Assembly: GCA_016870355.1 (NCBI GenBank)
Contig: VGBR01000003.1
Location: forward strand, 68,653 to 132,652
Reading direction: 5' to 3'
Origin: Actinomycetota bacterium
GTDB lineage: Bacteria > Actinomycetota > Acidimicrobiia > IMCC26256 > PALSA-555
Length of the DNA: 64,000 nt
Positions 449 to 55,879 of the stretch are shown in pieces. Numbering within the stretch: the stretch's first letter is position 1; the number at the start of each line of letters is the position of its first letter. The notes beneath the pieces are model-generated. The model was given only the letters and a program-made list of their open reading frames with translations, had not been told where the DNA came from and did no database searches. Both the position numbers and the translations under genes were made by a program.

Positions 449-943
449 TCATCCCGTCGTCGAGACGTTGGTGACCGTGATGCGCACCGCATCACGCGCG
501 GTGCCCGATGATGCAGTGATCAGCACGTCCTGTTCTGCACCGAACGGAGGATCGCTGACGCGCACCACGACCTTGACCTTCTCGAACGATCCCCCCGGCA
601 CCGAGAGCGGATATCCCTCGGACTCGAGCTCCGACGCGATGTCGACCCCCTCATAGAAGTACTTGACCGCGAACCCCGCGCCCGGTACCGATCCGCGCAC
701 GACAAACTCCGCGGGTTGGTCACCCTCGTTCTCGATGCGAAGGGTGAGGCTGACGCGCTGGTCGACGACGACGTTGCGCTGCTGGCCGACGCCGTCGTCG
801 TTGTAGAGATCGTCGCCGGTGAGCACGTCGCCGCCCCGACTGACGAACATGAGATCGGGTTGGGCCGCTACTTGTCCGGCCGCGGTGGCGGGGGCCATGA
901 CCAGCGTCAGCGCGACCGCGAGGAGGACTCCGCCTCGCGTCAC
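449..943 (-). CDS. Secreted protein with CARDB-like beta-sandwich domain
   Basis: 164 residues with a clear Sec signal peptide (MTRGGVLLAVALTLVMAPATAAG, cleavage near residue 22-25). The mature part contains RVSLTLRIENEGDQPAEFVV, the pattern of CARDB/DUF11-like extracellular beta-sandwich domains, and ends in VRITVTNVSTTG. No catalytic motif is visible; an adhesive or cell-surface role is possible but unproven. The GTG start at 943 has TACGCT 7 nt upstream on its own strand and no Shine-Dalgarno sequence. It faces the membrane protein gene at 967 across only 23 bp. Confidence 0.65.
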   Translation of the reverse strand: MTRGGVLLAVALTLVMAPATAAGQVAAQPDLMFVSRGGDVLTGDDLYNDDGVGQQRNVVVDQRVSLTLRIENEGDQPAEFVVRGSVPGAGFAVKYFYEGVDIASELESEGYPLSVPGGSFEKVKVVVRVSDPPFGAEQDVLITASSGTARDAVRITVTNVSTTG

Positions 944-966
944 GAAACCGAGCGTACTCTTCGCCC
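944..966. promoter_or_regulatory. 23-bp divergent intergenic region with overlapping -10 boxes
   Basis: The whole gap between two divergent start codons is 23 bp. Bases 951-960 read AGCGTACTCT: on the minus strand TACGCT lies 7 nt before the GTG at 943; on the plus strand TACTCT lies 6 nt before the GTG at 967. There is no room for a leader or Shine-Dalgarno sequence in either direction. Confidence 0.5.
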
Positions 967-2130
967 GTGCCGGACCGGCAGGGCGACGCGATCTCCGCGA
1001 CCGAGAGCTGGTTCGTTGCTCGGGGTCTTCCGCACTTCATCTTTCGGTACAGCGCGTCACGCGATGTCTGGACTCGCGCCGCGCCGCTGCTGACGCTCGT
1101 CGCGCTGATCGAGGTCGTGATCAACGCCCCGAGCGCCAGCTTCGAGGTGTGGGTGAGCGTGCTCGTGACCGTCGCGGCGTTCCTGGCGGTGATCGCGGTC
1201 TGGGCCATCGCGAACGCGGTTCGAGACCGACCCCTGTTCTCCCGTCCGGAGGACGTCGGTCCCGTTGAAGTCGCGCTCTTCGTGGTGCTGCCCGCGCTCG
1301 TGCCGATCGTCACCGATGGTCAGTGGCGCTCGGGGCTCGTGACCGGGTCGGCGAACCTCGCGCTGCTCGCGATCATCTACCTGTCAACGAGCTACGGCAT
1401 CGTCCCCATGACCCGCTGGGTGATCACCCACGGAGCTCGGCAGGTGCTCTCGGTGTCGGCGCTGCTGGTGCGCGCGCTGCCGCTGTCGCTGCTCGTGGTG
1501 ATCATCGTCTTCTACACCGCCGAGCCCTATCAGTTCGCGCACGAGCTGCCCTGGCCGTTGCTCGGCCTCGCGCTCTTGCTCTTCGGTTCCGTGGCCACTG
1601 CGTTCGCGATCGTGCGCGTGCCCCGCCAGGTTGGGGAGCTGTCACAGGGCGAGACGTGGTCGACGTTGCGCGGGCGGGCCAAGGCGACGCCGGCCGGCGC
1701 CTTGTCGGCATCGAAGCCAGCCTCCATTCCGCGGATCACGCACCGGGAGTGGACCAACATCGGGTTGGTGGTCCTCACCGGGGAGGCGATCCTGGTCCTC
1801 CTGGTCGGCGCCTCGATGTTCGGGTTCCTCGTGCTGCTGGGCACCCTGACCGTGCCGGTGGAGCTCGCCAGCGCATGGGCCGGTGCTCCCGTCGAAGAGC
1901 TGGTGTCGTTCCACCTCTTCGGTGCCGATCTCGCCGTCAGCAGCGAGCTGCTGAAGACCGCGGCGTTCCTCGCTGGGTTCACCGGCCTTCAGTTCACCGT
2001 GTCGCTGCTCAGTGACGCGACCTACCAGGAGGAGTTCCTGCACGATCTGCGAGAGGAGCTGCGCGTCGCGCTCGCCGTCAGGGCGGTCTACTTGACGGTC
2101 ATGATCCGCCGAGCACGCACGGCCACGTGA
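967..2130 (+). CDS. Polytopic membrane protein of unknown function
   Basis: 387 residues from a GTG at 967. Hydrophobic segments occur at about residues 40-60, 65-85, 97-115, 120-145, 160-185, 193-215, 263-300 and 335-350, with a polar cytoplasmic linker near 215-255 (QVGELSQGETWSTLRGRAK). There is no transporter signature, nucleotide-binding motif or channel pore motif that I recognise. The gene has TACTCT 6 nt upstream and is probably leaderless. It precedes purA by about 100 bp but has no evident link to purine synthesis. Confidence 0.6.
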   Translation: MPDRQGDAISATESWFVARGLPHFIFRYSASRDVWTRAAPLLTLVALIEVVINAPSASFEVWVSVLVTVAAFLAVIAVWAIANAVRDRPLFSRPEDVGPVEVALFVVLPALVPIVTDGQWRSGLVTGSANLALLAIIYLSTSYGIVPMTRWVITHGARQVLSVSALLVRALPLSLLVVIIVFYTAEPYQFAHELPWPLLGLALLLFGSVATAFAIVRVPRQVGELSQGETWSTLRGRAKATPAGALSASKPASIPRITHREWTNIGLVVLTGEAILVLLVGASMFGFLVLLGTLTVPVELASAWAGAPVEELVSFHLFGADLAVSSELLKTAAFLAGFTGLQFTVSLLSDATYQEEFLHDLREELRVALAVRAVYLTVMIRRARTAT

Positions 2131-14751: not shown

Positions 14752-14827
14752 TGGTGGCCGGGGCCGGCGTCGATCCGGCGACCCCGCGCTTTTCAGGCGC
14801 GTGCTCTGCCAACTGAGCTACCCGGCC
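14752..14827 (-). tRNA. tRNA-Phe (GAA)
   Basis: The reverse complement folds as a standard tRNA: acceptor GGCCGGG/CCCGGCC, anticodon loop CTGAAAA with anticodon GAA, T-loop region GTCGCCGGATCGACGCC. The 3' CCA is encoded (TGG at 14752-14754). Confidence 0.93.
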
Positions 14828-14856
14828 GGGTTGGTGCCCGGTCGCCCGGGTCCCCG

Positions 14857-14931
14857 CGGTCCTGACGAGATTTGAACTCGCGACCTCCGCCTTGACAGGG
14901 CGGCGTGCACTCCAAACTGCACCACAGGACC
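14857..14931 (-). tRNA. tRNA-Asp (GTC)
   Basis: The reverse complement has acceptor GGTCCTG/CAGGACC, D-arm GTGCAGTTTGGAGTGCAC, anticodon stem CCGCC/GGCGG with loop CTGTCAA (anticodon GTC), and T-arm GCGAGTTCAAATCTCGT. CCA is not encoded. Confidence 0.92.
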
Positions 14932-14963
14932 TTGTTGCTCGACGGTTGGCAACCGCCGTCGCG

Positions 14964-15036
14964 TGCCCCCAGGGGAATTCGAATCCCCGTTACCGCCTTG
15001 AAAGGGCGGCGTCCTAGGCCGCTGGACGATGGGGGC
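14964..15036 (-). tRNA. tRNA-Glu (TTC)
   Basis: The reverse complement has acceptor GCCCCCA/TGGGGGC, anticodon stem CCGCC/GGCGG with loop CTTTCAA (anticodon TTC), and T-arm CGGGGATTCGAATCCCC-like. Discriminator A; CCA is not encoded. Third tRNA of a minus-strand Glu-Asp-Phe cluster. Confidence 0.92.
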
Positions 15037-15085
15037 CCGTTCCCTTTTGGGGCGACTCAGCGTAGCAGTCAGCCTTCGCGGCGCT

Positions 15086-15826
15086 TCAGGCCCTGCGCCG
15101 CCGCGCGTGCACCACGACCCGCCCATGGGAGTACTCGTGCCGAGCCCGTCCCTTGAACATCCGCGAACCGAGCGCGTGACTGAGGCGCTTGTGGCGCGGG
15201 GTGAGGTGGACGACGTGTGGGTCATCGAAGCCGGCGATTCGAAGCATGCCGAGGAGCGCAGGGACGTTCGGTCCCCACCAGTTCGTTGCGTCGCCGTAGA
15301 GCTCGGTAGTCGGATAGAAGGCCGCCGCCGGTCGGCGTTCCCGCAGCACGTCGACATGTGTCTCGAGCACCAGCTGATCACCCGTGACGCTCGCGACTCG
15401 TTCCAACGCGGTGATCGGGTCGCGCAAGTGGTACAGCACCCCGAGGAAGAGGACGAGGTCGAACGTGCCCCCGACCTTGTCTGGCGAGAGATCCGTCACG
15501 TCTACCTCGCGCGCCTCGACCTTGGATCCGAGCGTCCGGTGGGCGAGGTCGAAGCCCTTCTTGCCTGTACCGAGGTGCTTCCACGCGTACTCGTCGGCGG
15601 CGACGACTCGCGCCGCCCCTCGACGTTCGGCTTCGAACGAGTAGAAGCCGTCCCAAGCGCCGATGTCGAGCACGCTCAACCCGGTCAGCGATTCGGGAAG
15701 TCCGAGCAGCGGCCATCGCAGCGGCGTCTCGTCGCGACCGGGCGTGACGATGCCGTTCCCGAGGTCGATCGTGTGCCACCACACGACCTCGCTCACTTCG
15801 GCGCGGAGCCCATCCAGGTCAGACAT
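15086..15826 (-). CDS. CmoB-like (DUF1698) SAM-dependent methyltransferase
   Basis: 246 residues. The SAM-binding motif I reads LSVLDIGAWDGFYSFEAERR, followed by RVVAADEYAW and the late block FDLVLFLGVLYHLRDPITAL; this WDGFYSFEAERRGA...GVLYHLRDP pattern is that of the DUF1698 family that includes CmoB, which acts on tRNA wobble uridine. Actinobacterial members often have other, uncharacterised substrates, so the tRNA role is only suggested by family and by its place among tRNA genes. The C-terminus is very basic (VVVHARRRRA). Confidence 0.7.
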   Translation of the reverse strand: MSDLDGLRAEVSEVVWWHTIDLGNGIVTPGRDETPLRWPLLGLPESLTGLSVLDIGAWDGFYSFEAERRGAARVVAADEYAWKHLGTGKKGFDLAHRTLGSKVEAREVDVTDLSPDKVGGTFDLVLFLGVLYHLRDPITALERVASVTGDQLVLETHVDVLRERRPAAAFYPTTELYGDATNWWGPNVPALLGMLRIAGFDDPHVVHLTPRHKRLSHALGSRMFKGRARHEYSHGRVVVHARRRRA

Positions 15827-15867
15827 TCGACCCGCAGGGTAATGGCGCGCCTCGTACCCTTTCGGGT

Positions 15868-15940
15868 GGGCCGCTAGCTCAATTGGCAGAGCAACGGGCT
15901 TTTAACCCGGAGGTCGAGGGTTCGATCCCCTCGCGGCCCA
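15868..15940 (+). tRNA. tRNA-Lys (TTT)
   Basis: Acceptor GGGCCGC/GCGGCCC with discriminator A, D-arm GCTCAATTGGCAGAGC, anticodon loop CTTTTAA (anticodon TTT) and T-arm GAGGGTTCGATCCCCTC. CCA is not encoded. Its last 29 nt plus two flanking bases recur 55 bp downstream. Confidence 0.93.
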
Positions 15941-15966
15941 CACGGTTGCGGCTTTTCACTCGTGAC

Positions 15967-35333: not shown

Positions 35334-35369
35334 GCCGCGCAGTTTGGCAGAGCCCGTAACGTCGGTGCC
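35334..35369. promoter_or_regulatory. 36-bp divergent leaderless promoter region
   Basis: On the plus strand TAACGT (35357-35362) lies 7 nt before the GTG at 35370. On the minus strand CAAACT lies 7 nt before the ATG at 35333. No Shine-Dalgarno site is present on either side. Confidence 0.4.
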
Positions 35370-43993: not shown

Positions 43994-44029
43994 GGCCGGT
44001 CAGCGTACGCGAGCGATAGGTTCGACCTC
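43994..44029. promoter_or_regulatory. 36-bp divergent leaderless promoter region
   Basis: On the minus strand TACGCT (44007-44002) lies 8 nt before the HIT ATG. On the plus strand TAGGTT (44017-44022) lies 7 nt before the glyoxalase ATG. Neither gene has room for a leader. Confidence 0.5.
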
Positions 44030-54653: not shown

Positions 54654-55085
54654 CTACAAGCAGTTCTTGCAGAGACCGACGAGGTCGATGCGGTGGGTTT
54701 TCGTGCGAAACCCGGTCGCGTCCTCGACCGGGGTGACGGCATCGGCGAGCGACGCCTCAAGCCCTGACGCCGCGGGGACGTCCTCGACCATCCCACAGCT
54801 TGTGCAGATGAGGTGATGATGATGGCCGGTGAGCTCCTCAGCGAGCTCGAACCGTGACGCTTCGGCGGTGACGATGCGGTGCACCACGCCCGCTCGCTCC
54901 AGCACCACGAGGTTCCGGTAGACCGAGCTCTGCGCGAGCCCGTCGCCCAATTCGAGGATCTCGGGAAGTGCGAGAGGGCGCGACGCGCCCGCGAGCACCT
55001 CGACGATCGCCAAGCGCTTGGGAGTCAGCCGTTGCTGCACCCGTCGGAGTCGCGTCGCTACTTCGTCGCGCAGATCGGGTGGCAC
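54654..55085 (-). CDS. Fur-family metalloregulator (probably Zur)
   Basis: 143 residues from GTG 55085. The winged helix TPKRLAIVEVLAGASRPLAL, SSVYRNLVVLERAGVVHRI is typical of Fur proteins. Metal ligands include HHHHLICTSCG and GLCKNC (two CxxC sets for structural zinc). Ferric, zinc or peroxide sensing cannot be separated by eye; zinc is favoured by the CDF and znuC neighbours. TACACT lies 7 nt before the start, without a Shine-Dalgarno site. Confidence 0.9.
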   Translation of the reverse strand: MPPDLRDEVATRLRRVQQRLTPKRLAIVEVLAGASRPLALPEILELGDGLAQSSVYRNLVVLERAGVVHRIVTAEASRFELAEELTGHHHHLICTSCGMVEDVPAASGLEASLADAVTPVEDATGFRTKTHRIDLVGLCKNCL

Positions 55086-55111
55086 CGCGTCGAGTGTACC
55101 GTCGCACTCAC
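55086..55111. promoter_or_regulatory. 26-bp divergent leaderless promoter region (fur/sirB1)
   Basis: Bases 55093-55102 read AGTGTACCGT: TACACT on the minus strand lies 7 nt before the fur GTG, and TACCGT on the plus strand lies 9 nt before the ATG at 55112. The two -10 boxes overlap, so the two promoters cannot easily be used at once. Confidence 0.5.
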
Positions 55112-55879
55112 ATGGAACCGACTGAGCGATTCGTCGAGCTGGTGCAGCGCGACCAGCACGACGTGCCGCTCGACGAGGCTGTGTTGCTCATCGCCGCGCA
55201 CGACCATGAGGTCGACGTTGACGCGCAGCGCGCTCGGCTCGACGAGCTCGCGAATGGCGCACCGTCTTCCGCGGATGCGCTCGCTACGTACCTGTTCGTG
55301 GAGCGCGGGTTCATCGGCAACTCGGTCGACTACGCCGATCCCCAGAACTCGTTCCTCGACGTCGTGCTCGACCGTCGGCTTGGGCTGCCGATCACGCTCA
55401 GTGTGCTGATGATCGAAGTCGGTCGCCGCGTTGGGCTGGAGCTCTCGGGTGTAGGGATGCCTGGACACTTCCTTGTAGGGAGCGGAAGCGACACGTTCTT
55501 CGATCCGTTTCACGGCGGAGAGCGCTTGGATGTCGACGGATGCCGAGCGCGCTTCGCCGGGACACGCGGTGATGTGCCGTTCCGCCCCGAGTTCCTCCAG
55601 CCGGTAGGCACGCACGCGATCCTCGCTCGCATGCTCGCGAACCTCGTCCACTCATACGTTGCCCGAGATCCCGCGAGCGCGATCTGGACAGTGCGGCTGC
55701 GGCTCCGCGTTCCGGGCGTCTCGGCCAACGAGCGACGCGAGGCGGCCGCCCTGCTCGGCACGCTCGGTCGCTTCGAAGAAGCTGCGGCCGAGCTCGCGCA
55801 GATCGCCGAAGAGCTCGACGGAACTGCGGCCGACCGAGCCGAGCGCGCCGCGGCTGCGTATCGAGCGCGCGCGAACTGA
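55112..55879 (+). CDS. SirB1-family transglutaminase-like protein
   Basis: 255 residues from ATG 55112; the track ORF runs back into fur. DPQNSFLDVVLDRRLGLPIT, LSVLMIEVGRRVGLELSGVG, MPGHFLVG and FFDPFHGGERL are the SirB1 signature blocks. The C-terminal third is helical with TPR-like repeats (REAAALLGTLGRFEEAAAEL). The family is widespread but has no settled biochemical role. Followed after 4 bp by the LON-domain gene. Confidence 0.88.
   Translation: MEPTERFVELVQRDQHDVPLDEAVLLIAAHDHEVDVDAQRARLDELANGAPSSADALATYLFVERGFIGNSVDYADPQNSFLDVVLDRRLGLPITLSVLMIEVGRRVGLELSGVGMPGHFLVGSGSDTFFDPFHGGERLDVDGCRARFAGTRGDVPFRPEFLQPVGTHAILARMLANLVHSYVARDPASAIWTVRLRLRVPGVSANERREAAALLGTLGRFEEAAAELAQIAEELDGTAADRAERAAAAYRARAN

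Follow-up and report, generated by a model that had tools for sequence, protein, structure and literature searches.

Predicted leaderless bidirectional promoters in minimal gaps between divergent genes of an acidimicrobial genome

The two shortest gaps between divergent genes in the window (the whole 64,000-nucleotide stretch analyzed here, C3:68653-132652, of a 2.82 Mb genome in 31 contigs with a G+C content of 68%) are, judging by their sequence, very probably leaderless bidirectional promoters. The two 36-bp gaps are, with the same high probability, back-to-back leaderless promoters having no bases in common. An earlier note on this DNA had given the four gap lengths as 23, 26, 36, and 36 bp, and these proved exact on recheck (Table 1). 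It had also placed a TANNNT-like box 6–9 nt from every start codon; an exact TANNNT was found on seven of the eight sides, the exception being the minus-strand side of the 35333 gene with its CAAACT. The boxes of the two shortest pairs overlap as claimed, the central TA (955–956 in 943/967 and 55097–55098 in 55085/55112) being common to both strands in the pattern ANNNTANNNT.

Table 1. Divergent gaps of the window, their candidate -10 boxes, and selected flanking genes (positions in the window).
Feature	Position	Strand	Description
943/967 gap	944–966	both	23 bp, GAAACCGAGCGTACTCTTCGCCC; predicted shared leaderless bidirectional promoter, offset -4 (TA common)
55085/55112 gap	55086–55111	both	26 bp, CGCGTCGAGTGTACCGTCGCACTCAC; predicted shared leaderless bidirectional promoter, offset -4
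43993/44030 gap (HIT/glyoxalase)	43994–44029	both	36 bp, GGCCGGTCAGCGTACGCGAGCGATAGGTTCGACCTC; two separate candidate leaderless -10 boxes
35333/35370 gap (35333 gene/nucleoside hydrolase)	35334–35369	both	36 bp, GCCGCGCAGTTTGGCAGAGCCCGTAACGTCGGTGCC; boxes without overlap
Candidate -10 box of 967 gene	955–960	+	TACTCT, 6 nt before GTG
Candidate -10 box of 943 gene	951–956	-	TACGCT, 7 nt before GTG
Candidate -10 box of SirB1/transglutaminase-like gene	55097–55102	+	TACCGT, 9 nt before ATG
Candidate -10 box of Fur-family gene	55093–55098	-	TACACT, 7 nt before GTG
Box of 44030 gene	44017–44022	+	TAGGTT, spacer 7 nt
Box of 43993 gene	44002–44007	-	TACGCT, spacer 8 nt
Box of 35370 gene	35357–35362	+	TAACGT, 7 nt from GTG
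Box-like site of 35333 gene	35341–35346	-	CAAACT, spacer 7 nt; first T of TANNNT missing
943 gene	449–943	-	164 aa; matches neither Pfam nor NCBIfam
967 gene	967–2130	+	387 aa; membrane-like on visual inspection; matches neither Pfam nor NCBIfam
Fur-family regulator	54654–55085	-	PF01475
SirB1-like protein	55112–55879	+	Transglut_core2, PF13369

The 43993/44030 genes encode members of the HIT and glyoxalase families; in the 35333/35370 pair, the former product has no Pfam match and the latter is an inosine-uridine nucleoside hydrolase. Calling the genes “housekeeping-looking” was loose wording: the 943 and 967 genes are anonymous, and the latter was found solely in its own genus among 12 family genomes, while homologues of the 943 gene (40–45% identity) adjoin the 967 homologue within the genus. 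Elsewhere, the window carries a tRNA cluster (14752–15941) with the Phe, Asp, and Glu genes on the minus strand (14752–15036) and the Lys gene on the plus strand (15868–15941).

Genes were called with a six-frame comparison gene finder, leaving upstream signals unused, and start codons were assigned from its calls together with homologue alignment. Three family members were sampled, 2.0 Mb in total (1.22 Mb of this genome as stretches of C1–C6, 0.37 Mb of the genome G002, and 0.40 Mb of G009); the initial sample of this genome comprised 0.82 Mb. Within the named genome collection, the close relatives of this genome are Acidimicrobiia MAGs.

The TANNNT box and the start codons

In the 0.82 Mb sample, TANNNT located 6–9 nt before candidate starts was approximately ten-fold enriched for both ATG and GTG, and it was found before none of the 290 TTG codons. 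This spacing before ATG/GTG was recorded in 172 of 827 genes, in comparison with 7–33 for windows of the same width placed at other distances, and the same peak was repeated in G002 and G009, i.e., in three genomes in all. A Shine–Dalgarno-like (SD-like) sequence accompanied 0.4% of 261 leaderless promoters vs. 23% of the other genes. Outside the T, A, and T, these 261 promoters displayed no position with appreciable information and no other strong motif; a search for a common -35 element among them found none. TANNNT 6–9 nt before ATG or GTG, never TTG, is the signature of the leaderless promoters predicted here. On this basis, the pairs in the window look leaderless on both sides, as had been proposed: the 6–9 nt spacers, with an exact box on seven of eight sides, would place +1 on the ATG/GTG, and no SD sequence is visible in the four gaps.

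The same motif is nearly purged from genes. On the sense strand, it was encountered 97 times vs. 1079 after synonymous shuffling (ca. 11-fold depletion) and on the antisense strand 89 times vs. 925 (10-fold depletion); the neighboring spacings TA-N2-T and TA-N4-T showed a ratio of ca. 0.85. Avoidance of TA in general was ruled out as the main cause, since at codon positions 1–2 the N3 spacing alone was depleted (48 vs. 446), with N6, N9, and N12 at expectation. Where TA spans two codons, it is generally avoided, and this contributes to the overall depletion figure for TANNNT. The depletion ratio amounted to 0.14 in G002 and 0.18 in G009. The effect resembles the known selection that removes accidental -10 motifs from within genes (PMC1939733; PMC10653884) in that all frames are depleted; it differs in being about 11-fold, whereas a 50-kb sample of Escherichia coli gave a far weaker depletion (a ratio of 0.79). 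Similar TANNNT avoidance is known in Mycobacterium tuberculosis (PMC10653884), for which another source gives about 16,400 TANNNT (PMC3898074); by our own arithmetic this is ca. 1.9 per strand-kb, if both strands of 4.4 Mb were counted, vs. 0.4 here. Since the motif is nearly absent from genes and peaks before start codons, a box directly before a start is very unlikely to be accidental.

Spurious RTG codons are plentiful in GC-rich genomes; moreover, coding score alone put the starts at 55085 and 55112 slightly downstream. Should the real starts be situated further in, the gaps would be ordinary leadered promoters. Such misannotation is, however, scarcely credible, given that the homologue alignments begin at residue 1 for 943, 55085, 55112, 43993, 44030, 35333, and 35370, with the RTG kept at the matching position, and that the 6–9 nt peak is limited to ATG/GTG. 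For 967, the alignment begins at residue 5–6, and the RTG occupies the same position in 4/4 genus genomes. The 35333 gene possesses an SD-like leader (GGAGG/GGAGGG) in two genus relatives (L040 and L041); its leaderless-looking start in this genome possibly reflects the loss of a 5' leader.

Interlocked boxes: enrichment and conservation

The three genome samples together yielded 336 divergent pairs; in 48 of these, each of the two genes is preceded by a leaderless box. The offset between the boxes is -4 (TA in common) in eight of them and +1 (TANNNTA) in three, with any other offset represented by at most two pairs; one further short pair has an offset of -8. The interlocked class is small (11–12 loci in 2.0 Mb). 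Its geometry is enriched over shuffled gaps, as the earlier note had anticipated: with the start codons fixed and the gap letters shuffled (127 start-codon combinations, gaps of 15–30 bp), 13 cases were observed vs. a mean of 0.16 and a maximum of 3 in 2000 shuffles. Provided that +1 lies 12 bases after the first T, an offset of -4 corresponds to transcription starts 23 bp apart and an offset of +1 to starts 18 bp apart. A bacterial bidirectional promoter should have a -10 element readable on both strands at offset -4 or +1, which is the case for 943/967 and 55085/55112 (offset -4), though not for 43993/44030 (offset -15) or 35333/35370. It should also have divergent starts 7–25 bp apart and drive transcription both ways when isolated; the predicted starts are 24 and 27 bp apart when counted from the exact start codons and ca. 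23 bp apart with the standard -10 spacing.

The boxes, their spacing, their enrichment, and their conservation are read directly from the DNA. The 12-bp core of the Fur/SirB1 gap, GAGTGTACCGTC (55092–55103), is invariant in eight genomes of the genera g1, g3, g4, and g5, where the gap measures 24–26 bp (55 bp in one of them) and the flanks drift. In a ninth genome (L101), the core is altered on both sides to CACAGTAGCGT and still retains ANNNTANNNT, i.e., two TANNNT boxes with a common TA in a gap of 24 bp. Two separate boxes were found in the genus g2 and in more distant relatives. On a concatenated tree with weak deep nodes (support 49), the split state is seen in g2 as well as the outgroups, and either the fused or the split arrangement may have come first. 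One MAG record titled Bifidobacterium breve (CAMDCC010000006.1, L098) encodes a Fur 84% identical to that of this genome, and its species label looks wrong.

The 943/967 pair retains the 23-bp gap and both boxes in 4/4 genus genomes (L001, L024, L025, and L026; in the latter two, the gap was measured to an in-frame ATG), following the pattern GAGC(G/A)TA(C/G)(T/C)CT. For 43993/44030, relatives within the genus retain the two boxes, but the distance between the genes varies (gap of 37–143 bp). Conservation shared by all four pairs was ruled out by the state of 43993/44030 and 35333/35370 in relatives.

Interlocked pairs were recorded outside the window as well. A pair of genes for an SDR and an F420-type LLM oxidoreductase displays TAC(G/C)GTA (offset +1, TANNNTA) with a gap of 19–21 bp in seven of the family's genomes as well as in L296, which belongs to another family (loci L268–L275 and L296); TANNNTA is also present at this pair in further families, where the annotated gaps are longer. 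At a HAD/PhoD pair, three genomes of the genus and also L263 from the genus g3 retain ACGCTACCGT, and a CoA transferase/lipase-like pair is a further example of the ANNNTANNNT geometry in which neither partner is a regulator. In a pair comprising a DtxR-type regulator and an ABC transporter (L238–L240; C1:176160-176182 in this genome, G000), the common TA is kept in three genus genomes, and the interlocked predicted promoter sits inside a long palindrome covering this TA (AAGGTCAGGTTACCCTGACCTT in L240). The palindrome is likely an operator for both genes at once, an arrangement hinting that the two are repressed together instead of toggled. Its resemblance to DtxR/IdeR sites is presumed and serves as a lead only.

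These observations bear on two other explanations of the conserved gaps. The core could be mainly a regulator operator, e.g., a Fur-family site in the 55085/55112 gap, with TANNNT being secondary. Such a role would agree with the Fur-family partner, with the 12-bp invariance in four genera, and with the clear palindrome over the common TA in the DtxR-type/ABC pair. We consider it improbable, since GAGTGTACCGTC lacks a palindrome of the Fur-box type, the letters in L101 differ while its two TANNNT boxes stay, and the same geometry recurs at the regulator-free pairs (943/967, HAD/PhoD, and CoA transferase/lipase-like). Besides, an operator would probably supplement a promoter rather than replace it, and the core of the Fur pair could partly act as one.

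Alternatively, interlocking may be a passive by-product: the symmetry of TA gives half of the second box for free, so ANNNTANNNT requires only one extra T, and no selection on the pair is involved. Such symmetry is held responsible for the bidirectional promoters of E. coli (PMC10268837), and ANNNTANNNT was present at 5 of 108 leaderless promoters devoid of a divergent neighbor. This possibility, compatible with the shared-promoter mechanism and competing only with the claim of selected pairing, deserves to be kept in mind although we lean against it. It explains the origin of the arrangement, but not the keeping of the gap, boxes, and start codons across several genera. Among five relatives that were checked by eye and have no LLM partner, four have no second box either (f8 loci), which points to maintenance.

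Expected operation of the shared promoters

In general, sigma opens the -10 element, and transcription begins ca. 7 nt downstream of it. With the initiating base ca. 7 nt past the box, the transcript would start at the start codon, and the entire intergenic region would be promoter. From the arrangement of the boxes we infer transcription starts at these sites, leaderless translation, and the interplay of polymerases outlined below. With its central TA representing positions -12/-11 on both strands, the pseudo-symmetrical ANNNTANNNT would serve in either orientation as the -10 box for polymerase carrying the housekeeping sigma. Each transcript would begin at the A or G of the respective start codon or no more than a base or two away; at 55112, the 9-nt spacer is long if initiation is to fall exactly on the first base of the codon, and this mRNA may have a leader of 1–3 nt. 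Ribosomes would load onto the leaderless 5' end of both mRNAs.

It had been claimed that transcription in one direction should exclude the other, making a simple toggle. The exclusion is plausible at the level of a single event: the boxes have TA base pairs in common, so simultaneous occupancy is sterically impossible and one TA cannot be opened by two polymerases at once. Hence, only one orientation would be occupied at a time per promoter. However, the five E. coli bidirectional promoters tested all showed negligible competition at basal activity; it became noticeable only under strong activation in one direction, which can repress the other (PMC12825309). In M. tuberculosis, the divergent pair Rv1129c/Rv1130, both mRNAs of which are leaderless, is induced together on starvation (PMC3898074). 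A selected toggle, with transcription of one gene silencing the other and two stable states, is thereby left unsupported and appears very improbable. Bistability requires feedback, so exclusion alone does not produce it; no cross-feedback is known between the products of 943 and 967, and the interlocked partners in this genome are functionally diverse.

Given the negligible basal competition and the co-induction in M. tuberculosis, the partners are expected to be expressed either almost independently or under joint regulation. As long as initiation proceeds at ordinary rates, transcription of one gene should hardly affect the other, and interference would become visible only under strong activation in one direction. 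Any regulator binding over the common TA would control both genes together. The shared leaderless promoter lends itself to exact predictions: start sites should fall on both start codons, and both messages should be lost on mutating the common TA.

Relation to known bidirectional and leaderless promoters

The reading proposed here brings together bidirectional promoters and leaderless mRNA, each an established concept. Bacterial bidirectional promoters were reportedly described by Warman et al. in 2021. The resulting element may be the smallest possible divergent control region, with two promoters and two translation start signals in ca. 22 bp. It is about an even chance that leaderless-rich Actinobacteria possess a distinct, selected promoter class in which one symmetrical -10 element constitutes the complete gap; its two registers would fix the distance (19–25 or 22–28 bp), keep the genes paired over evolutionary time, and allow a single regulator to govern the two. 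The near absence of TANNNT from genes makes promoters recognizable from the DNA itself, and the geometry and evolution of shared promoters can be compared even in uncultured lineages. The ingredients are already known singly; a search of the open-licence literature, itself weak evidence of absence, returned no report of bidirectional and leaderless promoters combined in conserved, protein-coding, minimal gaps.

The predicted promoters share with leaderless promoters of M. tuberculosis the TANNNT ca. 7 nt before ATG/GTG and the lack of both a conserved -35 element and a Shine–Dalgarno sequence (PMC3898074). That study calls closely juxtaposed divergent promoters common; it describes leaderless promoters mainly gene by gene, with no account of the interlocked two-way form in the passages considered. 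With bacterial bidirectional promoters (PMC12825309; PMC10268837), they have in common one pseudo-symmetrical -10 element, starts 18 or 23 bp apart (18, 10, and 23 bp being the common spacings in E. coli; PMC12825309), and exclusive polymerase binding, the last two being predictions in our case. Those accounts do not treat leaderless mRNA, and the second RNA is often a non-coding antisense transcript. Here, in contrast, both products are protein genes, the start codons coincide with the predicted +1, and the putative promoter fills the gap.
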